The translations under genes and the position numbers were made by a program. From positions 2,490,501 to 2,554,500 of the forward strand of contig NZ_CP083350.1 of the NCBI RefSeq assembly GCF_020035535.1: DNA of 64,000 nt, in the 5' to 3' direction. This DNA is from Ensifer adhaerens. GTDB taxonomy: Bacteria > Pseudomonadota > Alphaproteobacteria > Rhizobiales > Rhizobiaceae. Positions 16,063 to 59,110 of the stretch are shown here, piece after piece. How positions within the stretch are numbered: the first letter of the stretch is position 1; each line of letters opens with the position of its first letter. Below the pieces are notes generated by a model, which worked only from the letters and a program-made list of their open reading frames with translations, was not told where the DNA came from and did not search any database.

Positions 16063-17424
16063 TCAGGCCGCGTCGATCGCCTGACGGATATCGGCGATGA
16101 TGTCGTCGGCATGTTCGATGCCGATCGAAAGCCGGACATAGCCCGGCGTGACGCCGGTCTTGAGTTGATCCTCCTCAGATAGCTGCGAATGCGTCGTCGT
16201 CGCCGGATGGATGGCAAGCGAGCGCGCGTCGCCGATATTGGCGACATGGTAGAGCAGATTCAGCCCGTCGATGAAGCGGCGTCCCGCTTCGCGTCCATCC
16301 TTCAGTTCGAAGCCGACCAGGGCGCCATAGTGGCCGTTACGGAGATACTTCTCGGCACGCTTCTGTGTCTCGCCTTCCTGGAACTTCGGGAAGATCACGC
16401 GACCGACCTTCGGATGGGTGCGGAGGAACTCGGCCACCTTGATCGCGTTCTCGTTGTGCTGGCGGATTCTGAGCGGCAGCGTCTCCAGCCCTTGGATGAA
16501 CTGGAAGGCGTTCAGCGGACTGATGGCGGCGCCGAGGTCGCGCAACAGCACCGCGCGGGCGCGCAGGATATAGGGATGAAAGTCGATCGCAGCCGCCTTT
16601 TCCAGCCACGTCTTGCTCTGGTAGCTCAGGTCCGGCTCGTGCAGGTTCGGATGCCGCGCCTCATGTTCGTGCCAGGGAAAGCGGCCGCTGTCGATGATCG
16701 CGCCGCCGATCGACGTACCATGACCGCCGATATACTTCGTCGTGGAGTAGACGACGACGGCGGCGCCGTGTTCGAAGGGGCGAATGGTCAGCGGGGCTGC
16801 CGTGTTGTCGACGATCAGCGGAATGCCGAAGCGCAAGCCGACTTCGGCCACTTCGGCGATCGGAAAGACCTCGAGCTTCGGGTTCGGCAGGGACTCGGCA
16901 TAGTAGGCGCGCGTCCTGTCGTCCGTCGCCCGGGCAAAGGCTTCGGGGTCAGAGGCGTCGACGAAACGGACCTCGATGCCGATGTTCTTCAGCGTTGCGG
17001 CAAAGAGTGCCCAGGTGCCACCATAAAGGCCGGCCGCGCTGACTATGTTGTCGCCGGCGCGCGCAAGGTTCAGGAGGGCGAACGCAGAGGCCGCCTGACC
17101 GGAGCCGAGGGCCAGCGCCGCGGCACCACCTTCGATTTCCGCCAGCCGCTGCTCGAAAGCGTCCTGCGTCGGATTGGAGACGCGAGTGTAGAGATGCCCC
17201 GGAGCTTCCAGCGCGAAGAGCTTGTCGGCGCCATCGGTGCCGGGGAGCTGATAGGACGTCGTCTGGTAGATCGGCACGGCGACGGCGCCGCTTGTCGGGT
17301 CGAAGCGGTAGCTGCCGCCATGGAGTGCCAGCGTTTCGGGATGCAACTGTCCGCCGGCTTCGCGCAGGCCGCTCGGTGCCTTGATCTTGATTGCAGGTTC
17401 TTCCGGCTTCTGATGAATCGTCAT
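16063..17424 (-). CDS. metY: O-acetylhomoserine sulfhydrylase (PLP-dependent)
   Basis: This 453-aa enzyme of the Cys/Met metabolism PLP family makes homocysteine from O-acetylhomoserine and sulfide. Motifs are GGSYRFDPTSGAVAVPIYQTT at the N-terminus (typical of MetY), YTRVSNPTQDAFEQRLA, LGSGQAASAF, VDNTAAPLTIRPFEHGA, and the PLP lysine in YSTTKYIGGHG (Lys230). The start has AAGGAGA 8 bp upstream. The 45-bp gap from the upstream oxygenase gene suggests an operon. A terminator follows. Confidence 0.93.
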   Translation of the reverse strand: MTIHQKPEEPAIKIKAPSGLREAGGQLHPETLALHGGSYRFDPTSGAVAVPIYQTTSYQLPGTDGADKLFALEAPGHLYTRVSNPTQDAFEQRLAEIEGGAAALALGSGQAASAFALLNLARAGDNIVSAAGLYGGTWALFAATLKNIGIEVRFVDASDPEAFARATDDRTRAYYAESLPNPKLEVFPIAEVAEVGLRFGIPLIVDNTAAPLTIRPFEHGAAVVVYSTTKYIGGHGTSIGGAIIDSGRFPWHEHEARHPNLHEPDLSYQSKTWLEKAAAIDFHPYILRARAVLLRDLGAAISPLNAFQFIQGLETLPLRIRQHNENAIKVAEFLRTHPKVGRVIFPKFQEGETQKRAEKYLRNGHYGALVGFELKDGREAGRRFIDGLNLLYHVANIGDARSLAIHPATTTHSQLSEEDQLKTGVTPGYVRLSIGIEHADDIIADIRQAIDAA

Positions 17425-17469
17425 ACCATGTCTCCTTGGCTCTCAGGTTGATCGGCGCTGTCCGGTTAA

Positions 17470-18507
17470 TCAGGCGGGCACCGCCGCTTTTTGCTGTTCC
17501 AGCAGGTCGGCGTGGTGCTCTGCGGCGACATCGGGGTGCGAGCGCAGCCGGGACTTCAGCACGTTGCGGCCGACCTCGTGGAAGAGCGGGTTCTGCGGAT
17601 CCTGCGTAACGCCGCGAACCTCGGCCGCAAGCTCTGTTGGCAGGTCGAGCACCGGGATGGTCGAGGCGAGGTTGGCGCCGAGGAAGAAGGCGACGGACAG
17701 CCGGTCGCCGCCGGCTGGGGGCGTCACCACTCGGTGGATGTTGGCGAGCAGATAACCGTTCGACGCCAGTTCCAGAAGTTCGCCGACATTGATGACGAAG
17801 GTTCCGCGCTTCGGCGGTGCGTCGATCCACCCGCCCTTGCCGTCATCGACCTGCAGCCCGCCAACCACGTCCTGCAGCAGGATGGTGACGAAACCGCCGT
17901 CCTTATGGGCGCCCACGCCCTGGTCGCTCTCCGTCTTGTCACGGCCGGGGTAGCGGATGATCTTCAGAAGTTGGTTGGGGCCGTCGCGATAGATCGGGCC
18001 GAAGACATCGGGCTTCTGGCCGAGCGCTTCCGAGAAGATCTCGATCAGACGAATGCCGAGCCCGGTGACGGCTTCGATATAGTCGAGGATCGCGGGCTTC
18101 AATTCTGGCAAGGCATCGGGGAACTGATTGGGGCCGACGAGCCGCTTCCATGGTGCATCGCCGGAGGCGGTTTCAAGCCTTTGACGCTCGGGACCGAAGT
18201 CTACCTGCTCGCGCCAGTCCTGGGTACCACGGGTATATTCGAGGCCGGCACGGTTGTAGCCGCGGAAGTGCGGCGACTTGCGCATTTCGATCGCCAGCTT
18301 GTCATCCTCGGGCAGCGCGAAGAAACGACGCGAAAGCGAAAGGATGCCGTCGATCTCGTCCTGCGGGATGCCGTGGCCTTCGAGGTAGAAGAAGCCCACC
18401 GAGCGGGCGACGCTGCGCAACTCATCGAGCGCGGTCGCCCGCTCGGGATGGCCCGCCGCAAAGCGGGAAAGGTCGAGGACGGGCAGGGTTGGATTGGTCT
18501 TGCTCAA
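17470..18507 (-). CDS. 2-oxoglutarate/Fe(II)-dependent oxygenase (isopenicillin N synthase family)
   Basis: This 345-aa enzyme has a DIOX_N-like N-terminal half (GFFYLEGHGIPQDEID) and a double-stranded beta-helix core. The iron ligands are His201 and Asp203 (GAHKDGGFVTILLQD) and His258 (ANIHRVVTPP); the 2OG-binding R-x-S is Arg269/Ser271. No ATG is available, so the start is TTG at 18507 with GGAGA about 5 bp upstream. Being upstream of metY suggests it releases or modifies a sulfur compound, for example oxidative desulfonation. That is inference from context, and the substrate is unknown. Confidence 0.88.
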   Translation of the reverse strand: MSKTNPTLPVLDLSRFAAGHPERATALDELRSVARSVGFFYLEGHGIPQDEIDGILSLSRRFFALPEDDKLAIEMRKSPHFRGYNRAGLEYTRGTQDWREQVDFGPERQRLETASGDAPWKRLVGPNQFPDALPELKPAILDYIEAVTGLGIRLIEIFSEALGQKPDVFGPIYRDGPNQLLKIIRYPGRDKTESDQGVGAHKDGGFVTILLQDVVGGLQVDDGKGGWIDAPPKRGTFVINVGELLELASNGYLLANIHRVVTPPAGGDRLSVAFFLGANLASTIPVLDLPTELAAEVRGVTQDPQNPLFHEVGRNVLKSRLRSHPDVAAEHHADLLEQQKAAVPA

Positions 18508-18693: not shown

Positions 18694-18748
18694 GGTACCC
18701 CCGGCTGTGTCGAGTGGTTCAAGCCTAACCCACAGCGCCGTTTATTCA

Positions 18749-18768
18749 ATAATATCTATGGAAATTAT
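18749..18768 (-). promoter_or_regulatory. LysR-type dyad (ATAAT-N10-ATTAT) upstream of the sulfur operon
   Basis: An AT-rich island in GC-rich DNA carries ATAAT and ATTAT arms separated by 10 bp. This spacing and T/A composition are typical of LysR-family operators such as CysB/Cbl sites of sulfur-starvation promoters. It is about 240 bp upstream of the oxygenase start and about 55 bp upstream of the possible leader ORF. No LysR gene is in the window. Confidence 0.4.
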
Positions 18769-18990
18769 GGACTAAAATTCGAAGGCCGGGCGAGGTAAAC
18801 ATTCGAACGGCGCGAGGTTCCGGGGAAATTCCGTCCGGGCCGTCGCTACTAGCGCTGGTGAACGCTCCCGCGCGTCGATACTGGCGCACGCCGATTGCAA
18901 GGTGGTAGGCGAGTGGCACTGCAAATGCCGTCACGCCTGGCCGAGCTATGCACACCGCGTGAGGTGAACTTGCTTGCAGAGCGCAAATGA

Positions 18991-19026
18991 AAAGCCCTGT
19001 TTTGCTTTTCTGCAAAACAGGGCTTT
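18991..19026 (-). terminator. Perfect 15-bp inverted repeat, probable terminator
   Basis: AAAGCCCTGTTTTGC and its exact complement flank a 6-base loop. On the minus strand the structure lies about 95 bp after the small gene at 19122-19358 and is followed by a T-rich TTTTCATTT. It most likely ends the YcaO/TfuA-region transcript. Confidence 0.6.
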
Positions 19027-19121
19027 GTGGCGATCGGATTTTCGGGTCACCCCGGCGTTCCCGGAAACGGAGGATGACCCTTCACGACTGCGCTATTCCG
19101 GGCGGAGACGCCCTACCGGTC

Positions 19122-19358
19122 TCAGCAGCGGCCGAGGCTTGGTCGTGTCATCAGTTCGTTGGTGAGATGTGCTCTCTTGTCTCCGCACTCCTCTGCCTCC
19201 TTGAGCAGTGACGCAAGCGCCAACTCGAGGCAGTATTGCACGCCTTCGACATTGAGGGTCTTGGCGGAGTCGCGCGCATAGGTGACAAGGCGAGCCAATG
19301 CCAGCAGCTCCTTCTCCTTGTCTTCCGGCTCCACCGGTACAGCAAATGAAGATAGCAT
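19122..19358 (-). CDS. Small acidic helical hypothetical protein downstream of tfuA
   Basis: This 78-aa protein begins MLSSFAVPVEPEDKEKELL and continues with amphipathic helix segments (LARLVTYARDSAKTL and YCLELALASLLKEAEEC). The ATG at 19358 has GGGGA about 6 bp upstream, better than any earlier start. It lies on the same strand as tfuA, about 120 bp after its stop. It could be part of the RiPP locus or an independent small regulator; no family was recognised. Confidence 0.6.
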   Translation of the reverse strand: MLSSFAVPVEPEDKEKELLALARLVTYARDSAKTLNVEGVQYCLELALASLLKEAEECGDKRAHLTNELMTRPSLGRC

Positions 19359-19478
19359 GATTTTCCCCAGCTCCCTATGGATCGGCCAGATCCAGTTCAG
19401 CGTGAGCAATCATAGCGTGACTGCGCGGCAGTGCGCGTGACATGAGCGTGACACACGTTGTATGGGAAAACCACGCGC

Positions 19479-20204
19479 TTAAGATGAAGCGTCAGGTTGA
19501 CCGGACAACATCTTCCACATGCTGGTAGAATTGAATTTCCAGTCTTTGGCCACAACTGTTCGTTGGTTCGGCGCCTTGTGCAGTGCATCAAGCAAAAGCA
19601 ACGCATCGATACGCTTCTGATCGACGAATTCAGCGGCAAGCAGGTCTTTGAGGCGTGTGCGATCGATGCCAGCGGCAAGGGGCGCGCGCGCGACCACCGC
19701 GGTCCAGGTGCGCTCCTTGTAGAAGATGCCGGCCGCCGCGCCGCCGATCGCCGCTGCCGCTTCCGCAGAAAGCAGTTGGCGATCCCGAAGGTGCCTGAGG
19801 GTCATGTCCACATTCACGAGTGGCAGGGTCAGCGGCAGGTGCCCGAGCTCAGCCGGGCTGTGGATCAGGGCGACATCGGCATCGTCCACCCGCTCGCATT
19901 GCGCATATTGGCGGTAGACCTCGCCAATGCCCGTCATGCCGAAGGGAGCGCATTCTGCAGCGCGCAGCGCACCCATGCTGGCTGCGCCGAAGACCTGAAC
20001 GCCTTGCGTCAGCGCGTAGAGAATCTCCTTATGCCAGACCGGCGCCACCTGTTCGAAATTGCCATCGACCAGGCCGATGGCTGTCGCTCCGCGCTCGGTC
20101 GCCTGGAGAATGTCGCTCTGGACCGCAGGTGGCAGGACGGTAATGGCATCGCCCGCAATTCTCTGCGCGTCCGGCAGCGTCGGGCCCACGAAGACGATCT
20201 TCAT
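19479..20204 (-). CDS. tfuA: TfuA-family protein, YcaO partner
   Basis: This 241-aa protein carries the TfuA-like domain. It begins MKIVFVGPTLP and has the family signature VFGAASMGALRAAECAPFG followed by MTGIGEVYRQY (about residues 71-100). TfuA is named from trifolitoxin biosynthesis in Rhizobium. In studied thioamide systems TfuA partners YcaO and is thought to help deliver sulfide for backbone thioamidation. The ATG overlaps the YcaO stop by one base (TAATG), so the two are translationally coupled. No membrane helices are seen. Confidence 0.88.
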   Translation of the reverse strand: MKIVFVGPTLPDAQRIAGDAITVLPPAVQSDILQATERGATAIGLVDGNFEQVAPVWHKEILYALTQGVQVFGAASMGALRAAECAPFGMTGIGEVYRQYAQCERVDDADVALIHSPAELGHLPLTLPLVNVDMTLRHLRDRQLLSAEAAAAIGGAAAGIFYKERTWTAVVARAPLAAGIDRTRLKDLLAAEFVDQKRIDALLLLDALHKAPNQRTVVAKDWKFNSTSMWKMLSGQPDASS

Positions 20205-21451
20205 TAGACCTCCAGCGCGCGCGTCAGCGCCCGCGCTCCGAAGCGGCGCTTGCGAAGCTCATCGGGGTTTTCGAGGTCGGGAACGAGAACCTTGACGACA
20301 GAAAACGGCATTGCCCCCTCTTCGACCAGCGGTACGACGATGGTCGAGCCGATACGCGCCTCCTCGAGCCGCCGCATCACGAAGCGCAGCAGTTCCTGCG
20401 GTCCGCGCCCGGCGTTGGTAGCTGCTGCCGTTTTCCTTTGAGGCACCGCCTCGAACAGGCGTTGCGTCTCGCTCGGAAGGGGACGGGTAAACGTCTCGGG
20501 AAAGACGTCGTCGCGGGCGCCGCTGATATAGGTGAGCCGCGACTGAGCGGCCTCCGTCACGGCGCGGATGGCGGCTCTTCCCGCCACCGGGTGCGCGCCA
20601 TGGCCGATCGTCACGTCGTGGTATCGGGGTTGCCGCGCGGTCAGAATGCCGGTGCCGGCAAGGGTCGCCGTATAACAGGGGATTGCGACGTCGCTGGTCA
20701 TATCGAATAGACGCAGTTGCAGGCCGCAGTCCACGATCCGCCGCTCCATCCCGTCGAGGATCGGGTCCTCGAACGATGCCGGATCAATGCAAGTCCTGAG
20801 CTTGCCGTCCAGCGGCAACAGACGCCAGAGCGTTTCGGCGTCGCGCTCGATCCGCTCCAGCAGGCCGTGCAGGATAGCCTCGGTCTCGGTGTTGCCGGAG
20901 GCAAGGCCGTCGGAGGATTGCCAATATCGGCAGCGGTCGATGGTTCGGTCGAGCGTCGTTGCGTGAAGCGGCGCCCATGTGGTGGATCCATCCGCCAGAT
21001 CAAATCCGCTGAGCCAGGCGATCGTCTCGTCGTCTCCGAGATCGGCCCCGCCGGCGGCCACTAGACCCGGAAGCGTCAAGGCCCGGTCCCCACCCTCGCG
21101 CAGGGCCCGTCTGGTCGCCATTCTGAACGGAACGGAAGGCGCGCAGGCCACGGCGCGTTCGATCGCCTCCATGGCGGCCGAAATCTTGGCGTCGCTATCG
21201 CTGACGCCCTTTCCTTGATTGATGACGATCGACCGCGCATTCGGGGAAATGGCGCTCCAGACCGGGATCCCGATCTTGTCGAGCCCGGTCAGGCGCGCAA
21301 GCCGGCTGACGCCGAATGTCGGCAAAAGCGGCTCGATGCGCCGAAGGGTCTCTTCGGGCGAACAGGCGCGATCGCTGTATGAGAGCATTCCGGTCGTCGG
21401 ATGACCGATACGATCATCCGACGGCCGGTCAATTTCGGTGGCCTGCGCCAC
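20204..21451 (-). CDS. YcaO-domain peptide backbone-modifying enzyme
   Basis: This 415-aa YcaO enzyme activates peptide amide bonds with ATP. ATP-binding motifs are readable: SAAMEAIERA (Ser91, Glu95, Glu98, Arg99), GNTETEAILHGLLERIERDA (Asn187, Glu191, Glu199, Glu202), and VTEAAQSRLTYISGARDD (Glu300, Gln303, Arg305). The N-terminal FGVSRLARLTGLDKIGIPV and NQGKG are family-typical. The C-terminus ends RALTRALEV and lacks the PxPxP tail of many azoline-forming cyclodehydratases, and no fused E1-like partner is present. Pairing with TfuA favours thioamide formation (inference). The start is GTG at 21451, 9 bp after the precursor stop; ATG 21388 is an alternative. Confidence 0.9.
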   Translation of the reverse strand: MAQATEIDRPSDDRIGHPTTGMLSYSDRACSPEETLRRIEPLLPTFGVSRLARLTGLDKIGIPVWSAISPNARSIVINQGKGVSDSDAKISAAMEAIERAVACAPSVPFRMATRRALREGGDRALTLPGLVAAGGADLGDDETIAWLSGFDLADGSTTWAPLHATTLDRTIDRCRYWQSSDGLASGNTETEAILHGLLERIERDAETLWRLLPLDGKLRTCIDPASFEDPILDGMERRIVDCGLQLRLFDMTSDVAIPCYTATLAGTGILTARQPRYHDVTIGHGAHPVAGRAAIRAVTEAAQSRLTYISGARDDVFPETFTRPLPSETQRLFEAVPQRKTAAATNAGRGPQELLRFVMRRLEEARIGSTIVVPLVEEGAMPFSVVKVLVPDLENPDELRKRRFGARALTRALEV

Positions 21452-21460
21452 GTCTCGGCG

Positions 21461-21682
21461 CTAGCCGTCCATGAATCCGCCGGAAACCGAACCGGACGAG
21501 GCGGCCAGCACGGCGAGGTTCACGCCCTTGTGCACTGTCGCGCCGCCGTTGCTACGCAGATCGTTGGCCGCTGCGAGCGGTCCCTGTGTCGGCGTCGGAA
21601 TTAGCGTCACCGTTCCCGCATCCAGATCTGCCATCCAGAGCCTGTCATCGCCTTCCACACCAATTACCACCACTTTCGCCAT
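21461..21682 (-). CDS. Candidate RiPP precursor peptide of the YcaO-TfuA cluster
   Basis: This 73-aa peptide starts at ATG 21682 with a strong AGGAGG. The N-terminal half (MAKVVVIGVEGDDRLWMADL) looks like a structured leader. A Pro/Thr hinge (TLIPTPTQGP) follows, and the C-terminus is small and Ser/Gly/Ala-rich (LAVLAASSGSVSGGFMDG), a plausible core. It contains no cysteine, so Cys-derived thiazoles are excluded; Ser azolines or backbone thioamides remain. It lies directly before ycaO (9 bp) and 32 bp after the SARP-type regulator gene. The precursor role is inferred from position, size and composition. Confidence 0.7.
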   Translation of the reverse strand: MAKVVVIGVEGDDRLWMADLDAGTVTLIPTPTQGPLAAANDLRSNGGATVHKGVNLAVLAASSGSVSGGFMDG

Positions 21683-21714
21683 TTGCCCCTCCTGGCTTTC
21701 ACTGAATGAAGACG

Positions 21715-23589
21715 TCAGAAGCCTGCCTTGCGCAGGCCCTCGCAATAGTGGACTCGCTGCCACTCTTCCCTAAAGGGAACGATGGCCATCCATTTGTCGA
21801 GATCAAAATCCGGATGCACGTCGAATGTCTTGCGGACGAATTGGCGTGCCTTCTTCTTGTTGCCAAGCATACCCCAGCTCGCCGCCGACAGCCGGTCGGC
21901 AGGCGTCGGATCGCGCATACGCTCGATATAGGCGATGGCCTGCTCGTACTGCCCGAGCGAGTAGCTGGCGCCGGCTGCGGTCCAGAAATATTCGTCCGGC
22001 GCGATCGGGTTGAGGTCGAGCGCGGCCTGGATCTTGCGTAGCCCGCCCTCGGGACGCGAGGCCTGCACCAGCGTGTCGGCGTAGCTCGCGATCACGTTGG
22101 CATGCTGCGGGCTCAGCGCCTCCGCCTTGTCATGGTACTCCATGCTCTCATCGAACTGTCTCAGATAGAGCTTGACGACACCGAGTTCGCGATAACCCGT
22201 TGCCAGCGTGTCATCGGCTCCCACCGCGTCGCGCGCATGCCGCTCCGCAAGTGCCAGCAGTTCGCTGTCGCCACGCGCCGTCAGCAGCCATTCGAAGAAG
22301 TAGCTGCGTGCCAGGCCACTCATCGCCGGCGCAAAGTCGGAATTCTCGTACAGCGATTCACGGAAACTCTTGCGAGCGCGCCGCACTTCCGGAAGGTTGA
22401 GCTGCTTGAGGTAGCGCTGCCCAAGCAGGAAACTGCGATAGGAGCCGACATTGGTTTCGTAGGTCTTCCGTTGTGTCTCGTTGCGCTCCACCTGGCTGGC
22501 GATCGCATAGGCGATCTGCAGTGCGATCTCCCGCCTGGAGGTCATCAACCCGTCGCCGTCGATATTGAAGCGGTCAGCCCAGATCACCTCGTCGTTGGCA
22601 AAAAAGATCAGTTGGGTGAACAGGGTCAGCCGGCTGCCCTCGTCCGTCAAACGGGTATCGAGGATGTAGCTGATGGCGTGCTTTTGGTAGGTGTTTGCCT
22701 TGTCGGACTGAAGGCTGATCTGCGCGGCCGTGTAGGGGGCGATGACCGAAACCGAACGAAGCGCGCAAAGACCGATGGTGACGTCCTCGATCAGGGCGCT
22801 TGCGAACTGGGTGGAGGGACTGTCGATCGCTCCGTTGCTCGGCGGAAGCAGCACGACACGCGGCGGACGCAAGTCGGCAGCTGTCTCCGAAACTGGAGCG
22901 AGGATCGTCGAAGCTGGCGGTCGCCATTCCGCGACCGCGGGAACGACCGGCGCATCGCTGTGCGCGATTGCCCTTGCCTCGAGGGGATTGCCCTCCAGCT
23001 GAAACACCTGGGTCAGGATCTTGCGCACATCTTCGTCGAGCGGATTGCGCTCAAGGAGCCGTGCTGCGGCCGCCTTGACCAGCTTGCGCAGGCTCTTCGT
23101 CGCTTCCGGTGCGGCTAAGAGCAGGCTTTCGCGCAGGAGCGTCATGTGCTCGCCGCGCTGCCGCTCGATCCAGCCGTGGAGCGCTTGCCCTTGCGACTTC
23201 AGATCCTTGAGGAAGTCCTCCTGGAACGTCGTCGCCGCCAGCTGGAAGCGGGCGAGGGGATCGCCCGTGTCTCGGCCGATTTCATCGAGATCGCTCTGCA
23301 GCCGATCGACGTCGAGCCCGACCGACGATTGGGAGAAACTCAGGAAATGGCAGCCCAGTTCGTCCTGTCGCGCGCTGATCCGGGAGATCGTCTTGCGCAG
23401 ATTGACGAAGGCCTGGCTGGGGACGACTTCATCCCACAACAGCTTGGCAATGTCGTTTCTCGACTGCTCGCGATGTCCGCCGACGATAAAATAACAAAGG
23501 ATGAGCAGACCCTTTTCCGGAAAGGCCACTTCGCGCCCGTCGGCATCGACGAGGCGCAAGAGCCCGAGGGTCTGCAGTCTGAATGTCAT
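21715..23589 (-). CDS. SARP-type transcriptional regulator (wHTH-BTAD, TolB-like, TPR)
   Basis: The protein has 624 aa. Residues 1-95 look like an OmpR/SARP winged helix (MTFRLQTLGLLRLVDADGREV, AFPEKGLLILCYF, NLRKTISRI). About 95-200 is a BTAD-like helical segment with ARLLERNPLDEDVRKIL. About 245-360 resembles the TolB-like N-terminal module (VVLLPPSNGAIDSPSTQFASAL, EVIWADRFNIDGD). About 390-610 contains TPR-like repeats. Proteins of this build occur widely in rhizobia as regulators. The stop is 32 bp before the RiPP precursor start on the same strand, making it the probable cluster-situated regulator. Confidence 0.8.
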   Translation of the reverse strand: MTFRLQTLGLLRLVDADGREVAFPEKGLLILCYFIVGGHREQSRNDIAKLLWDEVVPSQAFVNLRKTISRISARQDELGCHFLSFSQSSVGLDVDRLQSDLDEIGRDTGDPLARFQLAATTFQEDFLKDLKSQGQALHGWIERQRGEHMTLLRESLLLAAPEATKSLRKLVKAAAARLLERNPLDEDVRKILTQVFQLEGNPLEARAIAHSDAPVVPAVAEWRPPASTILAPVSETAADLRPPRVVLLPPSNGAIDSPSTQFASALIEDVTIGLCALRSVSVIAPYTAAQISLQSDKANTYQKHAISYILDTRLTDEGSRLTLFTQLIFFANDEVIWADRFNIDGDGLMTSRREIALQIAYAIASQVERNETQRKTYETNVGSYRSFLLGQRYLKQLNLPEVRRARKSFRESLYENSDFAPAMSGLARSYFFEWLLTARGDSELLALAERHARDAVGADDTLATGYRELGVVKLYLRQFDESMEYHDKAEALSPQHANVIASYADTLVQASRPEGGLRKIQAALDLNPIAPDEYFWTAAGASYSLGQYEQAIAYIERMRDPTPADRLSAASWGMLGNKKKARQFVRKTFDVHPDFDLDKWMAIVPFREEWQRVHYCEGLRKAGF

Positions 23590-23616
23590 CCGGTCATTCC
23601 TGTCGGGCGCAAACGA

Positions 23617-24069
23617 TTATCCGTGCAGATCCTGGGCGTGGGTCGTTCCTGCGCGGCTGCCTTCCGTCTCCGGCGTCTGGGCCACGGCGGCGACGAGCGA
23701 GATGATCTTCTTGCGCAACACCGGATCCGTGATCTTCAGGAAAGCGCGGTTGAGCGCGATGCCTTCCTTCGACGAAACGAAGGAGGAGATTTCGCTCGGT
23801 TCGCGCGTCGTGTCGCCGGCGCCGTTGCGAGCAGCTGCGTCGTCGCCTTCCTGGAAGAAGAAGCTCGGATGCACGCCGAGGATATCGGCGATCGCCTGAA
23901 GACGGCTGGCGCCGATGCGGTTGGTGCCTTTTTCGTACTTCTGAACCTGCTGGAATGTGATCCCGAGGCCGTCGGCCAGCTTCTCCTGGCTCAACCCGGC
24001 CATCAACCGACGCATCCTGACGCGGGAACCGACAAAGACATCAATCTGGCTGGGGGCTTTTGTGTTCAC
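23617..24069 (-). CDS. XRE-family HTH transcriptional regulator
   Basis: This 150-aa regulator has a helix-turn-helix at about residues 15-68 (VGSRVRMRRLMAGLSQEKLA, ITFQQVQKYEKGTNRIGASRL, ADILGVHPSFFF). The C-terminal part (ALNRAFLKITDPVLRKKIISL) matches the common alphaproteobacterial XRE group. It lies 27 bp upstream of the SARP-type gene on the same strand and is the first gene of the putative RiPP transcription unit. Confidence 0.88.
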   Translation of the reverse strand: MNTKAPSQIDVFVGSRVRMRRLMAGLSQEKLADGLGITFQQVQKYEKGTNRIGASRLQAIADILGVHPSFFFQEGDDAAARNGAGDTTREPSEISSFVSSKEGIALNRAFLKITDPVLRKKIISLVAAVAQTPETEGSRAGTTHAQDLHG

Positions 24070-24527
24070 TTGTATTTCCTCCGCACGTAGGAGTGGTCAA
24101 ATCATACATATGAGTTTGCTTGAATAAATCTCCCGATGCAATCACTACGGGCTAAAACACGGAGATTTGCAAAGCCGCCCCGGTTTTCCAGGGGGTGAGC
24201 CGGGCGATGCCGCAACGATTGGAGCACAAGCGCGCGAATTGTGGCGGATCACGCAGGCCAACTTGCCTCGTTTACGCCAAAATGCGGGGGCGCCGGGCGC
24301 GAATCGATCCGGCGTCAATGCGCTTGCGACTGTGCGAACGGCTGGGTCCCATCGTCCTCATTCAACGGCTTTTACGGTCGCCGTTACTGTTAAGTACTTG
24401 TGCTGCCCCGGCTCTTGAAGAAGCTGCGATCATACCGGCTCTATGTCCGCGCCTTACCTGCCTGCTGGCGGGATGAGGGGGCAGCGCGGAGCCGGTTCGG
24501 ATTGCTGCTAGATGCCGGAGAACCGAA
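24070..24527. other. Divergent intergenic region between the XRE regulator and the SH3-protein operon
   Basis: These 458 bp hold an AT-richer stretch next to the XRE start (around 24100-24135, including CATATG), presumably its promoter. Box E lies at 24381-24400 on the side of the SH3-protein gene. No ORF with a credible ribosome site was found. Confidence 0.5.
24381..24400 (-). promoter_or_regulatory. Box E of the five-copy 20-bp element (SH3/MscS operon)
   Basis: On the minus strand it reads CAAGTACTTAACAGTAACGG. After a one-base offset this matches the consensus AAGTACGTAACAGTWACGAA, with G-to-T at position 7 and G replacing A at position 19. It is 128 bp upstream of the SH3-protein start, in the same orientation relative to its gene as the other copies. 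Confidence 0.5.
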
Positions 24528-27116
24528 ATGCGCAGATTGACCCTGGCCTTGACCCTGTTGGCGATTGCTTCCATGCCGGCAGAGGCCGGTCCGGCTACGA
24601 CGAGCGCGTCCGTCAATTTCCGGGAAGGACCGGGCACCGGTTTCAATAGTCTGGGTACGATTGCGGAAGGCGCGGAGGTCGACGTCAAGGAATGCGACGA
24701 TGCCGGCACATGGTGCGCCGTCAGCTTCAGCGGCCAGAACGGCTTCGTCAGCGGCAAGTACCTGAACGATGCCGACCCGAAGGGGCTTGGCTGGCCGCGC
24801 GCCTTCAAGACCGACAGTGGCGCGACCATCACGCTCTACCAGCCGCAGATCAACGCGTGGAAGGACTTCACCGATCTCGATGCGCTGATTGCCACCGAAT
24901 ACAAGCAGTCTGACGATGCCAAGCCGATCTACGGCGTCATCGGGGTCACCGGCAAGACCGCCGCCGACAGTGCATCCGGCCAGGTCGTCGTTTCGGACAT
25001 CAAGATGACGGAGATCAATTTCTCCGTCCTTGACCGGAAGGAACTGGCGGATCTCGCGCTTGAGGTCGGAAAGCTGATGCCGGTCGGAACCATCACCGTT
25101 TCCGAGGACAAGTTGACGGCGAGCCTCGCCGACTACGAGCGGCTCGGCAATGTCGAAGGGCTGAAGGCCGATCCGCCGCCGATTTTTATCAGCAAGAGGC
25201 CGGCGGTGTTGGTGCAGACCGACGGCAAGGCGGTGTTCGCGCCGGTCAAGGGTGTCGAGGGCCTGTCCTTCGCCGTCAACACCAACTGGGACCTGTTCAA
25301 GGTCGATGCGGACGGCACCTATTATCTGCGCAACGACAAGTCCTGGCTGCAATCGAAAGATCTGGCCTCGGGGTGGCAGCCTGCGCCGTCGCTGCCCGAC
25401 ATTCTTGGCAAGCTGCCGGACGACGACAACTGGAAGGATGCGAAGGCGGCAATTCCGCCGCAACCGGACAAAGCCGTGGTGCCGGATGTCGTCTATTCGG
25501 ACAAACCTTCCGAGCTGCTCGTCTTCGACGGCGAGCCGGAGCTGGAGCAGGTGCCGGGCACCGGCCTCAAGGTTGCAACCAACAGCGAGAGCGATGTCTT
25601 CTACCGCAATGCGGATTCCAACTGGTACATTCTCGTCTCCGGCCGCTGGTTCGCGAGCTCTTCTCTCGATGGTCCGTGGACCTTCGCGACGCCCAAGCTT
25701 CCAGAAGATTTCCAGAACATCCCGCAGGATGCCGCCTATTACACGGTGCGCGCTTCCGTTCCCGGCACGTCCGAAAATGCCGAAGCGCGGCTGAAGGCGA
25801 GCATTCCCGAAAAGGCGCGCGTGGCGCTTGACGGGTCGGTCACGGTCGACGTCACCTATAGCGGCGATCCGAAGTTCGAGCAGATCGACGGCACTTCGCT
25901 CACCTACGCCGTGAACACGAATGAGATCGTCATCAAGGTCGGCGACAAGTACTTCGTCGTGAAGGACGGGATCTGGTTCGTCGGCGACAAGCCGACCGGA
26001 CCGTTCAGCGTCGCCAAGGCGGTGCCGGACGAGATCTACCAGATCCCGCCGTCTTCGCCGGTCTACAACGCGACCTATGTGCGGATCTACGAGACGGAGC
26101 CGGATGCGGTCTGGTTCGGCTACACGATGGGCTATCTCGGTGCCTATCTCGCCTGGGACACCTTCGTCTACGGCACCGGCTGGTACTATGACGACTATTG
26201 GGACTATGGCTGGGCCGGCGGCGGCTACTGGCCTTACTATCCGCGTCCGGTGACCTATGGCGTCGGCGCGTTCTACAACCCGGCTGTCGGGACGTTCGGC
26301 CGCTATGGCTATGCCTATGGCCCCTACCGCGGCATCGCCGCCGGTGCCGCCTACAATCCGCGCACCGGGACCTACATGCGCGGCGCTGTCGGCTACGGAC
26401 CGAACGGAGACCGGGGCTTCGTCGCGGCCTATAATCCGCGCACCGGCAACGCGGCGATCGCGCGCGGCGGGCACAATGTCTACGGCAGCTGGGGCACAGC
26501 GGCCGTCAAGCACGGCTCGGACTTTGCGCGCATTTCCGGCGGTGCGACCGCGGGCGGCGCCGGTATGCATTGGCGCACGTCAGACGGCAACCATGGCTTC
26601 GTCGCCGGCGGCAAGGGTGGCGACGTCTATGCCGGGCGTGACGGAAGCGTCTATCGCCGCGACGACGGCCAATGGCAGAAGCACACGCCGGACGGCTGGC
26701 AGCCAGTCGACAAGCCGTCGATCCAGGATCGGGCCAAGGCGGGCGAACAGTTTTCTGCCAATCATCCGGATGCGGCCCAGAACCTGAATCAGCGGATCGA
26801 GACACGTCAGTCCGGCCAGGGAGCAGGCGCCAGAACATTGGACCGGGCACCCGACCATCTGGCCATCGACAACATCGGGCGACAGCTCGGCAACCAGCGT
26901 TCCTTCGAACGCCAGTCCTTCGATCAGCGCCCGCTGAACTTCCCGAGCAGCGGCGGAGGTGGCTTTGACCGCCCGGGTGGCTTCGGGGGAGGTGGCTTCG
27001 AAGGAGGTGGGTTCCACGGCGGTGGCGGCTTTCAAGGGGGCGGCGGTTTCCATGGTGGAGGCGGCTTCGGTGGGGGCGGTGGTTTCCATGGCGGTGGTGG
27101 GTTCCGTCGGCGCTGA
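24528..27116 (+). CDS. Large exported SH3-domain protein with Tyr/Gly-rich C-terminus
   Basis: This 862-aa protein has a signal peptide (MRRLTLALTLLAIASMPAEA). A bacterial SH3 domain follows at about residues 25-80 (SVNFREGPGTGFNSLGTIAEG, WCAVSFSGQNGFVSGKYL). Then come three similar beta-rich segments of about 100 residues (FAVNTNWDLFKVDADGTYY; VATNSESDVFYRNADSNWY; YAVNTNEIVIKVGDKYF). An aromatic stretch (WYYDDYWDYGWAGGGYW) precedes repeats with YNPRTG, and the Gly-rich tail holds GGGF/GGFHGG units. It is likely a cell-wall- or envelope-associated protein. It heads an operon with MscS, a lytic transglycosylase and a lipoprotein. Box E precedes it, and GGAGA lies 7 bp before the ATG. Confidence 0.85.
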   Translation: MRRLTLALTLLAIASMPAEAGPATTSASVNFREGPGTGFNSLGTIAEGAEVDVKECDDAGTWCAVSFSGQNGFVSGKYLNDADPKGLGWPRAFKTDSGATITLYQPQINAWKDFTDLDALIATEYKQSDDAKPIYGVIGVTGKTAADSASGQVVVSDIKMTEINFSVLDRKELADLALEVGKLMPVGTITVSEDKLTASLADYERLGNVEGLKADPPPIFISKRPAVLVQTDGKAVFAPVKGVEGLSFAVNTNWDLFKVDADGTYYLRNDKSWLQSKDLASGWQPAPSLPDILGKLPDDDNWKDAKAAIPPQPDKAVVPDVVYSDKPSELLVFDGEPELEQVPGTGLKVATNSESDVFYRNADSNWYILVSGRWFASSSLDGPWTFATPKLPEDFQNIPQDAAYYTVRASVPGTSENAEARLKASIPEKARVALDGSVTVDVTYSGDPKFEQIDGTSLTYAVNTNEIVIKVGDKYFVVKDGIWFVGDKPTGPFSVAKAVPDEIYQIPPSSPVYNATYVRIYETEPDAVWFGYTMGYLGAYLAWDTFVYGTGWYYDDYWDYGWAGGGYWPYYPRPVTYGVGAFYNPAVGTFGRYGYAYGPYRGIAAGAAYNPRTGTYMRGAVGYGPNGDRGFVAAYNPRTGNAAIARGGHNVYGSWGTAAVKHGSDFARISGGATAGGAGMHWRTSDGNHGFVAGGKGGDVYAGRDGSVYRRDDGQWQKHTPDGWQPVDKPSIQDRAKAGEQFSANHPDAAQNLNQRIETRQSGQGAGARTLDRAPDHLAIDNIGRQLGNQRSFERQSFDQRPLNFPSSGGGGFDRPGGFGGGGFEGGGFHGGGGFQGGGGFHGGGGFGGGGGFHGGGGFRRR
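26950..27113 (+). repeat. In-frame Gly-rich repeat tail of the SH3 protein
   Basis: Short tandem units encoding GGGGF, GGGFH and GGGFQ make up the last ~55 codons and end in FRRR. Slippage at such repeats could vary the length of the tail between strains. Confidence 0.8.
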
Positions 27117-55314: not shown

Positions 55315-57252
55315 ATGTGCGGTTTCGGTGGCCATTTCGGCTCAATTCCAGACGCTAAGATCCTTCTCGAGAAAATGGTTACTGCGATTGCGCATCGCGG
55401 TCCGGACGAGACCGGCTTTTTCGTCGACAAGGAGGCCGGACTTGGGCATGTGCGTCTGTCGATCGTCGGTCTCGGCGATGGTCAGCAGCCGATGTCGGAC
55501 GAGACCGGCGAATTGACGATCGCCTTTAACGGCGAAATCTTCAACTATGTCGAATTGCGCGAGGAACTGCGCTCCAAGGGACGGCGCTTCCGCACGTCAA
55601 GCGACACCGAAGTGATCCTGCATCTTTACGATGTCATGGGCGAGGAGTGCCTGTCTCGTCTCAACGGCGATTTTTCCTTCGCCATCTGGGATCGGCGTCG
55701 CCAGCGGATGGTGCTGGCGCGCGACCGGATGGGCGTTCGTCCGCTGTTTTACATGACCCACGGCGGCACGATCTATTTTGCCTCGGAGATCAAGGCCCTG
55801 CTGCAGGTGCCGGGCGTTTCTGCCGAACTCGATCCGATCGCGCTCGATCAGATCTTTACGCTCTGGGCGCCGATCGCGCCGCGCACCGGTTTTCGCGACA
55901 TTCAGGAGCTCGAGCCGGCGCATCTCATGATTGCAGAAAAGGGCAAGGTTTCGATCCGTCCCTATTGGCAGCTCGACTATCCCGACTTCGGTGCGCCGCC
56001 ACTTTTCACGGACGAGCGTGTCGCTGCCGAAGAACTGCGTGCGCTGCTTACCGATGCCACCCGGATCCGGATGCGCGCCGATGTTCCCGTCGGCTCCTAC
56101 CTTTCCGGCGGGCTCGATTCCTCCATCGTCGCGGCGATGGCGACCGGCATGGCGCCGCAGGGCCTCAGGACCTTCTCCGTCACCTTCGATAGCGCGGAAC
56201 ACGACGAGAGCGCCTTCCAGGTGGAAATGGCGACAGCGCTCGGCACACACCACAGCGCCGTTGCCTGCCGGGCGGGCGACATCGCAAGATCCTTCCCGGA
56301 GGTGATCCGCTTTGCGGAGCGACCGATCATCCGGACGGCGCCAGCGCCTCTCTATCAGCTTTCGGGTCTGGTGCGGGAGCAGGGGCTGAAGGTGGTTCTG
56401 ACGGGCGAAGGGGCCGATGAGGTCTTTGCCGGCTACGATATCTTCAAGGAGGCGCGGGTGCGCCGGTTCTGCGGCCGGCAGCCCGGTTCACGCATGCGCC
56501 CGCACCTCTTCCGCAAGCTCTATCCCTACATCCCCGGCCTGCAGCAGCAATCGGCGGAGTATCTGGCCGCGTTTTTCGGCGCCGGCGACGTATCGCTTGA
56601 CGATCCGCTGTTCTCGCATCGTCCGCGCTTCAAGAGCACGGCGGCAACCAAGATCTTCTTTTCCGGAGACCTGCGTACACGCCTGAGCAACTACGATGCG
56701 GCGGAAGATCTGGCGAGCCGGCTTCCCGCAGCCTTCGGCGGTTGGCACCCGCTGCACCAGGCGCAATATCTCGAAAGCCGCTTCCTGCTGCCGGGTTACA
56801 TCCTGTCGAGCCAGGGCGATCGCATGGCCATGGCCCATGGGATCGAGGGGCGGTTCCCGTTCCTCGACCATCGCCTCGTCGAATTCGCGACCCGTCTGCC
56901 GCCAGAGATGAAGCTGAAGGGTCTGGTGGAGAAGCATATCCTGCGCGAAGCGACGAAGGATCTGCTGCCCCCGTCCATCGGCCAGCGGACCAAGCAGCCC
57001 TACCGCGCACCGGACAGCCACTCCTTTACCGGGGTGGGCGAACTCGACTACGTCCGCGACGCCATGAGCGAAGCGCGCGTCAGCGACAGCGGGCTTTTCA
57101 ATGCCAAAGCCGTGACGAAGCTCTACGACAAATGCCAGTCGCAGCCGGTGAGCGGCTTCCGCGACAACGCGGCTTTCGTCGGCGTCCTGTCGACGCAGCT
57201 CTGGCTGCAAACTTTCACCGGCACCAGCGTCCGCGCGGCGGAAGCAGCCTGA
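55315..57252 (+). CDS. Glutamine-hydrolysing asparagine synthetase-like amidotransferase (AsnB family)
   Basis: This 645-aa protein has a class II glutaminase at its N-terminus. The start codon ATG 55315 gives MCGFGGHFG, with Cys2 as nucleophile; an earlier TTG would bury it and was rejected. FNGEIFNYVELREEL and DFSFAIWD follow. The synthetase domain has SYLSGGLDSSIVAAM (PP-loop, about residue 261-275) and VLTGEGADEVFAGY. AsnB-like enzymes in surface-glycan clusters often amidate a carboxylate of a sugar or amino acid instead of making asparagine. The cluster context (ACP, AMP ligase, NadE) favours such a role (inference). Confidence 0.88.
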   Translation: MCGFGGHFGSIPDAKILLEKMVTAIAHRGPDETGFFVDKEAGLGHVRLSIVGLGDGQQPMSDETGELTIAFNGEIFNYVELREELRSKGRRFRTSSDTEVILHLYDVMGEECLSRLNGDFSFAIWDRRRQRMVLARDRMGVRPLFYMTHGGTIYFASEIKALLQVPGVSAELDPIALDQIFTLWAPIAPRTGFRDIQELEPAHLMIAEKGKVSIRPYWQLDYPDFGAPPLFTDERVAAEELRALLTDATRIRMRADVPVGSYLSGGLDSSIVAAMATGMAPQGLRTFSVTFDSAEHDESAFQVEMATALGTHHSAVACRAGDIARSFPEVIRFAERPIIRTAPAPLYQLSGLVREQGLKVVLTGEGADEVFAGYDIFKEARVRRFCGRQPGSRMRPHLFRKLYPYIPGLQQQSAEYLAAFFGAGDVSLDDPLFSHRPRFKSTAATKIFFSGDLRTRLSNYDAAEDLASRLPAAFGGWHPLHQAQYLESRFLLPGYILSSQGDRMAMAHGIEGRFPFLDHRLVEFATRLPPEMKLKGLVEKHILREATKDLLPPSIGQRTKQPYRAPDSHSFTGVGELDYVRDAMSEARVSDSGLFNAKAVTKLYDKCQSQPVSGFRDNAAFVGVLSTQLWLQTFTGTSVRAAEAA

Positions 57253-57274
57253 TCTCTTCAAGAAAGGAAACCAC

Positions 57275-57541
57275 ATGACGGAAACGATCAAAGACAAGGT
57301 TAGAGCCTTCGTCATCGAAAACTTCCTGTTCGGCGACACGTCCTACGATCTCGCCGATACGGCATCGCTGATCGAGAATGACATCATCGACTCCACCGGC
57401 GTTCTCGAACTCGTGGCCTTCATCGAGGACCAGTTCGGCATTGCCATGGGCGATGCCGATATCGTGCCCGCCAACCTCGATTCTCTTTCGCGCATTTCGG
57501 CCTTCATCGAGACCCGGGTCGGGGCGCCGGCGACGGCATAA
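57275..57541 (+). CDS. Acyl carrier protein
   Basis: This 88-aa carrier protein has the phosphopantetheine site in SLIENDIIDSTGVLELVAF (Ser of D-S-T). A four-helix ACP pattern is readable, with EDQFGIAMGDADIVPANLDSL as helix 3 onward. The Asp-Ser-Thr triad differs from the DSL of fatty-acid ACPs, which suggests a dedicated carrier. It lies 22 bp after AsnB and 21 bp before the AMP ligase, so all are probably one transcript. Confidence 0.88.
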   Translation: MTETIKDKVRAFVIENFLFGDTSYDLADTASLIENDIIDSTGVLELVAFIEDQFGIAMGDADIVPANLDSLSRISAFIETRVGAPATA

Positions 57542-57562
57542 TCAAGGCGCGAGGGGGCGTCC

Positions 57563-59110
57563 ATGCGGTTCGAGCAATTTCTTACTGGCAATGCCGCAAG
57601 GCAAGCGGCGAAAACGGCGCTGGTCACCGACCGCCGTCGCCTGAGCTACGGCGAATTCGACGATCTATCGGGGAGACTGGCTGCCGCGCTCGCGCGGGCC
57701 GGCGTCAAACGCAACGATCGTGTGCTCGTCTTCATGGACAATTGCTGGGAAGCGGCGGTCTCGATCTTCGCGATCCTGAAGGCTGGCGCGACCTTCAGCC
57801 CGATCAACGCCTCGACCAAGTCGGACAAGCTCGCCTACATCATCACCGACTGCGAGGCGGCGGCAATCCTGACGCAGGCAAAGCTGATGCCGACCGTGGC
57901 GGAGGCGCAGGCCCTGAGTGGCAAATCGGATATCTTCATTGCCTCGACGGCCGCGCCGAATGGTCAGACGCCGGCTAACGCGATCGCTTTCGATGCCTGC
58001 CTCGCGGAGGCGGCAATGCCGGTGCTGCATCGCGGCATCGACGTCGACCTCGCGATGCTGATCTACACCTCGGGTTCGACCGGCCGGCCGAAGGGCGTAA
58101 TGATGACCCATCGCAACATCGATGCGGCATCGGAGTCGATCACCACCTATTTGCGCAACGAGCCCGACGACATCATCCTCAACGTGCTGCCGCTCGCCTT
58201 CGACTACGGCCTCTACCAGTTGCTGATGGCGATCCGCATCGGGGCGACGCTGGTGCTGGAAAAATCCTTCGCGTTCCCGCACGCGATCTTCGAGCGGATC
58301 CGCGAGGAGGGCGTCACCGGCTTCCCGCTGGTTCCGACAATGGCGGCGATGATCCTGCAGATGCGCGATCTGGAGCCCGGCTTCCTGCCGAGCCTGCGCT
58401 ATCTCTCCAATACCGCCGCCGCCTTGCCGCCGCCGCACATCGCGCGGCTCCGCGAACTCTTCCCGGGTGCCCGGCTCTATTCGATGTATGGGCTGACGGA
58501 GTGCAAACGCTGCACCTACCTCCCGCCGGAGGAACTCGACCGCCGGCCGGGTTCGGTCGGCATCGCGATACCAAATACCGAGGCCTTCGTCGTCGACGAT
58601 GAGGGCAAACGCGTACCGCCGGGCGTTCCCGGCGAACTCGTCATTCGCGGTCCTCACGTCATGCAGGGCTACTGGCGCAACGATGCGGCGACCGAGCGCA
58701 TGCTGCGACCGGGGCCGAACCCGTGGGAAAAGGTGCTCTATACAGGCGACCTGTTCCAGACGGACGAAGAGGGCTTCCTCTATTTCGTCGGCCGCAAGGA
58801 CGACATCATCAAGACACGCGGCGAGAAGGTCGCGCCCAAGGAAGTCGAGACCGTTCTGCACGCGCATCCCGGAATTGCCGAGGCCGTCGTGGTCGGCGTG
58901 GCCGATCCGGTGCTCGGCCACGCGATTGCAGCGCTGGTGGTGCGCTCCGATCCCAGCCTGTCGGACAAGGACATTATTCGCCACTGCACCCGCCACCTTG
59001 AAGACTTCATGGTGCCGAAGATTATCGAATTCCGCACCGAACTTCCGAAGACGGATACCGGTAAGGTCAGCCGCCGCCTTGCGGCCGAGACGATGGAGCC
59101 TGCTCAATGA
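57563..59110 (+). CDS. AMP-forming acyl/aminoacyl ligase loading the adjacent ACP
   Basis: This 515-aa ANL-superfamily enzyme has core motif A3 AMLIYTSGSTGRPKGVMM (about 163-180), A5 YGLTECKRCTYLPPEEL, A7 LYTGDLF, A8 KTRGEKVAPKEVETVL, and the C-terminal catalytic Lys in PKTDTGKVSRR (about 499). It activates a carboxylate as adenylate, probably for transfer to the neighbouring ACP. Whether the substrate is a fatty or amino acid cannot be read. The stop overlaps the NadE start by 4 bp. Confidence 0.88.
   Translation: MRFEQFLTGNAARQAAKTALVTDRRRLSYGEFDDLSGRLAAALARAGVKRNDRVLVFMDNCWEAAVSIFAILKAGATFSPINASTKSDKLAYIITDCEAAAILTQAKLMPTVAEAQALSGKSDIFIASTAAPNGQTPANAIAFDACLAEAAMPVLHRGIDVDLAMLIYTSGSTGRPKGVMMTHRNIDAASESITTYLRNEPDDIILNVLPLAFDYGLYQLLMAIRIGATLVLEKSFAFPHAIFERIREEGVTGFPLVPTMAAMILQMRDLEPGFLPSLRYLSNTAAALPPPHIARLRELFPGARLYSMYGLTECKRCTYLPPEELDRRPGSVGIAIPNTEAFVVDDEGKRVPPGVPGELVIRGPHVMQGYWRNDAATERMLRPGPNPWEKVLYTGDLFQTDEEGFLYFVGRKDDIIKTRGEKVAPKEVETVLHAHPGIAEAVVVGVADPVLGHAIAALVVRSDPSLSDKDIIRHCTRHLEDFMVPKIIEFRTELPKTDTGKVSRRLAAETMEPAQ

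Follow-up and report, generated by a model that had tools for sequence, protein, structure and literature searches.

A six-gene YcaO-TfuA locus in Ensifer adhaerens

The 8.1 Mb genome of Ensifer adhaerens is assembled in three contigs, and a 64,000-nucleotide stretch of contig C2 (NZ_CP083350.1, positions 2490501-2554500; hereafter the window) contains a locus that, judged by its sequence, is best supported as a genuine unit of six genes for a ribosomally synthesized and post-translationally modified peptide (RiPP) of the YcaO-TfuA type, with putative co-transcription of the sixth gene. Five open reading frames (ORFs), all on the minus strand and separated by gaps of 27, 32, 9, and -1 bp, encode an XRE-family protein (23617-24069), a SARP-type regulator (21715-23589), a 73-aa precursor peptide (21461-21682), YcaO (20204-21451), and TfuA (19479-20204). 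This order and spacing agree with a preliminary description made from the DNA alone. The same description ended the locus at tfuA, however, and overlooked a conserved sixth gene on the minus strand (19122-19358; 78 aa), which begins 120 nt past tfuA and encodes a CinS-like protein, a candidate antirepressor. Beyond it, a hairpin with a short T-rich tail resembles a terminator (18991-19026, minus strand); its fold (-25.5 kcal/mol, z -6.16) was equaled by none of 200 shuffled sequences. This hairpin is not among the sites listed by a consensus scan for promoters and terminators, which performed close to chance (one promoter-like site vs. 0.9 expected and six terminator-like sites vs. 4.3). Just 5' of the XRE gene, a longer conserved block includes the element TTCAAGCAAACTCATATG (24107-24124, minus strand), a candidate promoter or operator. 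An Rfam search of positions 18700-24600 at gathering cut-offs gave no match.

Fifty comparison loci were obtained by a single pattern scan with the window YcaO, a sample biased to close relatives, and their genes were called with a simple ORF caller. The closest relatives of this YcaO belong to Ensifer and Sinorhizobium. The XRE, SARP, peptide, and sixth genes were all present in 34 of the 50 loci; four loci lacked XRE alone and two lacked the sixth gene alone. Three loci retained only the SARP and peptide genes of the four (one of these, L016, is cut by a contig end), five had only a peptide gene of a long repeat type, and two had none of the four. The tfuA gene was found directly 3' of ycaO in 42 loci, the truncated L016 being among the other eight. 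Since the flanking genes vary between groups, the block from XRE to the sixth gene can be regarded as the unit. The preliminary description had remarked on the lack of an adjacent exporter or protease gene, and indeed no exporter or protease family recurs inside the block in the 50 loci, the flanks of which were not annotated gene by gene (Pfam annotation of flanking genes covered ten window proteins). A caveat is the gene for an ABC-type ATPase, by eye similar to amino-acid importers, that directly precedes XRE in 13 of the 33 loci with an XRE call.

The 73-aa peptide is conserved together with the modification enzymes

Several lines of sequence evidence argue that the 73-aa frame is a genuine dedicated precursor conserved with its enzymes, a point on which the preliminary description had made its reading depend. 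Among 346 Rhizobiaceae genomes, 64 have a precursor match and all 64 also have YcaO, while 13 further genomes have only a distant YcaO of 33-40% identity; these searches scored no more than 17 candidates per genome in one case and 5 in the other, so that absences weigh less than presences. A precursor match lies within 1 kb of 63 of the 66 YcaO matches with at least 40% identity, but of none of the 17 below 40%. Conversely, 64 of the 73 precursor matches are found within 1 kb of YcaO, the other nine comprising six full-length and three partial copies. The dN/dS ratio of the frame (0.06-0.12, against five Ensifer homologs) indicates purifying selection and, together with the co-occurrence in 64 of 64 genomes, rules out a chance ORF. 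A search of 5.8 billion proteins returned 16 homologous protein clusters for the peptide, whereas neither it nor the 78-aa sixth protein matches any Pfam family.

The precursor consists of a conserved leader of about residues 1-60 and a C-terminal SGGFMDG, which looks like the core, judging by the repeated units of relatives. Tandem units of the types SGG[FY][ML]D, FSGKLE, and FSGHYYKTP are present in two to five copies: SGGFLD occurs twice in Shinella sp. H4-D48, SGGYMD-type units occur three times in S. kummerowiae, R. alarense (L043) has four copies of FSGKLE, and in a Rhizobium locus (L048) there are up to five units of 20-odd residues around FSG[HQL]. The only core position that is invariant in 23 aligned short precursors is Gly69. 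All of the 53 precursors compared have in their tail the loose motif [S/G/A/D]-G plus two residues, which in several of them also occurs outside the core. Serine is not kept in all core units (DGGYMD, GGGYMD), and 53 of 54 precursors, including the window copy, lack cysteine. The long precursors of five loci (L044, L046, L048, L049, and L051) carry two to five units of 20-odd residues and lie directly 5' of ycaO without a SARP gene; a short precursor with a linked SARP gene stands beside the long repeat precursor of L046 and L051. Three other loci contain two different tandem precursor genes before one ycaO (L029, 7471-7972; L039, 7437-7939; L050, 7334-7974).

YcaO and TfuA point to a probable thioamidation

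The 415-aa YcaO is the sole PF02624 match in the genome (5.7e-56, covering all 325 model positions), and the 241-aa TfuA, its presumed sulfur-delivery partner, matches PF07812 (8.8e-42), in accordance with the TfuA signature recognized earlier. The C terminus of YcaO, ...RRFGARALTRALEV, lacks PxPxP, as previously noted. The full-length PF02624 match and the alignment with MJ1094, the best match in the PDB (6.2e-35), fit an intact YcaO; TfuA in turn matches the TfuA-domain protein 6xp8 (9.8e-26). The nearest named models and solved structures are those of the YcaO-TfuA pair that forms thioglycine in McrA of methanogens, with scores of 2.2e-54 for YcaO (TIGR03266) and 1.1e-48 for TfuA (NF033432). 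Both are under the model cut-offs and thus appear to reflect kinship with the McrA pair, not membership. The two systems differ in their substrate, which is a large enzyme in the case of McrA and would be a dedicated short peptide here, although a glycine, as in McrA, is also the target proposed for the peptide.

Because the two enzymes are closest to this archaeal pair, glycine thioamidation is the best guess for the modification, probably at the invariant core glycine. The invariance of Gly69, the replacement of serine, and the absence of cysteine likewise favor a backbone thioamide at glycine over an azoline. A precursor, YcaO, and TfuA suffice for a thioamide peptide in the case of thiovarsolin B (PMC6511847), and TfuA is reported to hydrolyze a ThiS thiocarboxylate, providing YcaO with sulfide (PMC13185837). 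Second, distant YcaO-TfuA loci, the YcaO of which is about 26-37% identical to that of the window, are present in Sinorhizobium and Ensifer (L060-L064); the window peptide had no tblastn match in the 3.4-kb stretches of these loci.

The XRE protein is a PraR paralog with a probable CinS-like partner

The XRE protein (150 aa) matches HTH_3 (9.9e-15, residues 18-71) and is a presumed repressor. Its assignment to the XRE family in the preliminary description stands, but is incomplete. The closest of four paralogs in the genome is a chromosomal protein (56% identity over 133 aa), the gene of which is followed at its 3' side by two genes that, read by eye, are metK and trmB. The neighborhood of praR likewise has genes for an S-adenosylmethionine synthetase and a tRNA methyltransferase downstream (PMC10790750), and from this match the window XRE can be classified, by homology, as a PraR-family paralog. 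PraR-type regulators are bound by small partner proteins, namely CinS in R. leguminosarum (PMC4149787) and MmaP in Methylobacterium fujisawaense (PMC10790750). In Caulobacter crescentus, BLAST is reported to have detected no protein resembling CinS (PMC10688885).

The sixth protein, 79-97% identical across 11 Ensifer-group loci, was detected by profile search in 38 of the 50 loci and is single copy in its own genome. It is probably a remote homolog of CinS. When its profile was compared with 78 ORFs around four acyl-homoserine lactone (AHL) synthase genes from three Rhizobium genomes, only three matches were significant (E 2.6e-4 to 4.9e-4), and these were ORFs that share their position with CinS in that they overlap the synthase gene at its end; the fourth locus (L079) had none. 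Conversely, when a CinS profile built from five sequences was used to rank the 12,881 ORFs in the loci, members of the sixth-gene family, some of them closely related to each other, took ranks 1-13. The XRE and CinS-like genes are both present in 34 of the 50 loci and both absent in ten (counting L016, cut by the contig end), and three of the six discordant loci have XRE elsewhere, beside tfuA. In eight stray or precursor-less loci (L085-L092), both genes are present in three and both absent in five. In the known PraR-CinS and PraR-MmaP pairs the small protein is made with the AHL synthase, while the CinS-like gene of the window sits in a RiPP unit that has a PraR paralog of its own.

A split arrangement was found in S. 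meliloti 4H41, S. medicae USDA1037, and Ensifer sp. USDA 6670, in which the locus consists of the SARP, peptide, YcaO, and sixth genes and an XRE-tfuA pair is located elsewhere in the genome. The element TTCAAGCAAACTCATATG is exact in six of ten aligned loci (the window and nine of the Ensifer group) and has one changed base (TTCGAG) in the other four. The form TTCAAGCAAACTTATATG precedes XRE in the three split genomes, and TTCAAGCAAACTNATATG precedes it in the window and in these three, with one exact match per genome; the window genome has two more element matches at two mismatches. A PraR site of the TTGCAA type (consensus from PMC4149787) was considered for the upstream block and not established; the arms of a putative palindrome and their spacing vary from species to species.

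The SARP-type regulator is tied to the short precursor gene

In the 624-aa regulator, a winged helix and BTAD-like helices are followed by an alpha/beta middle domain and C-terminal tetratricopeptide repeats (TPR). The SARP label given to it earlier, which implies a winged helix and BTAD at the N terminus, seems to hold by indirect evidence. The protein itself matches only TPR families in Pfam at E<=1, with no BTAD match, while BTAD (PF03704) was found in two of 30 members of its family (best 1.5e-8); three of the four PDB matches at E<=1 of a profile of its N-terminal 200 residues are AfsR (best E 0.009). The AlphaFold2 model (predicted local distance difference test, pLDDT, 83; predicted TM score 0.58) shows the winged helix, further helices, the alpha/beta domain, and the repeats. 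Foldseek searches with it returned many TPR proteins and the periplasmic domain of CadC (E 2e-6 to 1.3e-5, TM score 0.47-0.48 by target, with a poor root mean square deviation of about 14 A). These TPR matches, which include one Rap protein, were rejected as a sign of peptide binding, being many and generic and barely probing the SARP N terminus.

Genomic context suggests that the SARP gene is tied to the short precursor gene and not to the whole pathway. In the 50 loci the precursor is directly downstream on the same strand for 43 of 44 SARP matches, the exception being a second SARP homolog in L018. All six full-length precursors located away from YcaO (L085-L090) follow a SARP gene, in L087 with the SARP in a shorter frame. 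Of 53 precursors, only eight lack a SARP gene directly upstream, seven belonging to the long repeat type and one being the second of two in L050. The short precursors of L046 and L051 have SARP and no YcaO directly downstream. L091 and L092 keep XRE, YcaO, TfuA, and the sixth gene with only a SARP remnant, and a SARP-precursor pair is found on another contig (L088, L090); L089 combines XRE, SARP, precursor, and sixth gene, with no YcaO or TfuA in the 9 kb read. In the window genome the regulator profile has 15 other matches, all of them far weaker, and 14 of these lie outside the N-terminal part. The preliminary description had placed the locus under SARP control: a SARP-type gene is indeed present, but its linkage is to the short peptide gene.

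We also considered, as a distinctly unlikely proposal, that the SARP/TPR protein might act as a receptor for the accompanying peptide. The short core, possibly thioamidated, would then be an internal signal read by the TPR part, through which the cell would sense its own YcaO-TfuA modification, and the PraR/CinS-like switch would set when the circuit is open. The association of SARP with the peptide fits such a receptor, as does the fact that no exporter is linked. RRNPP systems are receptor-propeptide pairs such as Rap-Phr and others. In these, too, a TPR regulator gene lies directly 5' of a short peptide gene, as seen here for 43 of the 44 SARP matches and for the six stray precursors; however, their receptors are of the XRE-TPR or Rap type, and the candidate receptor of the window has a SARP-type N terminus. 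The window unit also differs from RRNPP systems in its Gram-negative host, in a peptide that is apparently enzyme-modified, and in the absence of an exporter from the block. A test of receptor-ligand evolution by core class did not favor SARP as receptor over plain descent: on the SARP tree (49 tips) three changes between GG- and SG-type cores were counted, against a mean of 15.2 and a minimum of 10 in 500 shuffles, and there were likewise three on the YcaO tree (43 tips; shuffled mean 11.3, minimum 7).

Proposed mechanism and alternative explanations

Building on the observed gene content, coding constraint, co-occurrence, recurrent core motif, and homologies (weak in the case of CinS), we infer the following scheme. 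The precursor would be bound by its conserved N-terminal part; YcaO would activate a backbone amide at the expense of ATP, and TfuA would release sulfide for it, most likely yielding a thioamide at the glycine of the SGGFMDG core. The product may act in the cytoplasm, or housekeeping functions may trim and export it. The PraR-type XRE protein would repress the unit at its own promoter, the CinS-like protein would bind and disarm this repressor and thereby open the unit, and the SARP/TPR protein would serve as a positive regulator accompanying the precursor gene. We regard this account of a six-gene thioamide-RiPP unit, taken as a whole, as slightly more probable than not.

Several points weigh against it. 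The YcaO and TfuA scores fall short of the McrA-model cut-offs, and the AlphaFold2 model of the precursor reaches a pLDDT of 66. The CinS profile is significant for a single member of the sixth family (L043, 2.1e-4), the next 12 having E values of 0.28-6.6; hhalign gave CinS and this family a probability of 59% when run locally and 8% when run globally, and the CinS sequences used were recognized from where they lie, behind a gene for an AHL synthase, and not from the names of their records. XRE occurs without the CinS-like gene in L017 and L037 and the reverse is seen in L019. The element conserved upstream of XRE, moreover, may be a promoter instead of an operator.

The alternative that survives best concerns the sixth protein, which might be an immunity, chaperone, or processing factor that resembles CinS only in that both are short helical hairpins. 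This is doubtful, yet deserves serious consideration: the similarity to CinS is weak, and CinS itself was found in three of 199 Rhizobiaceae genomes, one of these being a 31% fragment at E 0.0099. Against it, the reciprocal profile searches rank the other family first, and the presence of the gene tracks that of the PraR-like gene.

It is somewhat unlikely that the unit makes an ordinary secreted thioamide peptide of the thiovarsolin kind, with SARP as a pathway activator, XRE as a conventional repressor, and unlinked housekeeping functions for export and trimming. The thiovarsolin cluster of Streptomyces varsoviensis shares with the window unit a precursor, YcaO, TfuA, a repeating core, and the lack of a specific protease; only varA, varY, varT, and varO are required for production, and the transporter gene varP is dispensable (PMC6511847). 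The precursors of the present family likewise carry repeated cores. The thiovarsolin core is APR or GPR and that proposed here is SGGFMDG, and none of the six window proteins matches a heme-oxygenase (VarO-like), ligase, amidinotransferase, or transporter family in Pfam. The SARP, PraR-like, and CinS-like genes further set the window unit apart. Against this alternative, the block has no recurrent exporter or protease, as far as the non-exhaustive annotation goes, and a plain pathway activator would not be expected to accompany the full-length short precursors that lie away from YcaO (6/6) and to be missing directly 5' of the long repeat precursors (7/7).

A rather improbable alternative is that the 73-aa frame encodes no leader-core precursor, but a small folded protein that is itself modified in place, as McrA is and, according to PMC13063428, the ribosomal protein uL16. 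The strong conservation of its N-terminal two thirds, where the low-confidence model has three strands and a helix, and a block with no visible protease or exporter are consistent with this reading, whereas the tandem duplication of the C-terminal unit in relatives, in up to five copies, is typical of cores. Formation of oxazolines from core serine or threonine in place of a thioamide is highly improbable, since a SagD-family match of YcaO (2.1e-25, under cut-off) and the serine before glycine in most cores are opposed by the TfuA partner, by the lack of E1-like/RRE (RiPP recognition element) or dehydrogenase family matches among the other genes of the unit, and by core units devoid of serine.

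Relation to other rhizobial TfuA clusters

More than 500 TfuA-related clusters from Rhizobium were reported by Malit et al. in 2021, who also mention clusters of Sinorhizobium and, for several species of this genus, a heme-oxygenase-like gene (PMC8120280). Their catalog may well include units of the window type, but its main text, in the part available, names no such precursor family, core motif, SARP-precursor pair, or PraR- or CinS-like genes. A literature search on YcaO and TfuA in rhizobia, also in combination with PraR or SARP, found no description of this precursor family or its regulators in titles and the beginnings of abstracts, most subscription journals lying outside its range; YcaO and PraR together gave no paper, and a co-mention of TfuA and SARP in a conference volume proved to concern two unrelated words. 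Rhizobia are not mentioned in the available text of two papers on thioamides, as judged by word search (PMC13185837, PMC13063428). The apparently new features of the unit are the PraR-paralog XRE protein, the CinS-like sixth protein, and a SARP-type regulator that seems tied to a short precursor gene.

Among the hundreds of rhizobial TfuA clusters, the window unit offers a defined precursor family, a predicted core, and a small gene set; the loci that are naturally split in Sinorhizobium meliloti and S. medicae make its parts genetically separable. Should the CinS-like protein prove to be an antirepressor, the operon for a modified peptide would have incorporated a rhizobial quorum-sensing switch. 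With a SARP that reads the peptide, the product would be a signal and not a weapon, and its role as a receptor would imply signaling by an enzyme-modified peptide in Gram-negative bacteria.

Neighboring genes in the window

Past the operon, positions 16063-18507 encode a 2-oxoglutarate-Fe(II) oxygenase and a pyridoxal phosphate-dependent enzyme of cysteine and methionine metabolism. Both families are present in seven Ensifer-group loci, and the latter enzyme also in L041, L042, and L045. On the other side and divergent from the operon, positions 24528-27116 encode an 862-aa protein that combines an SH3_3 domain and an extended glycine-rich tail, the family of which was found in 11 Ensifer-group loci. 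Farther away, genes for an asparagine synthase, an 88-aa protein with no Pfam match, an AMP-binding enzyme, and an NAD-synthase-like protein stand in a row on the plus strand (55315-60114) and possibly form a small biosynthetic cluster.

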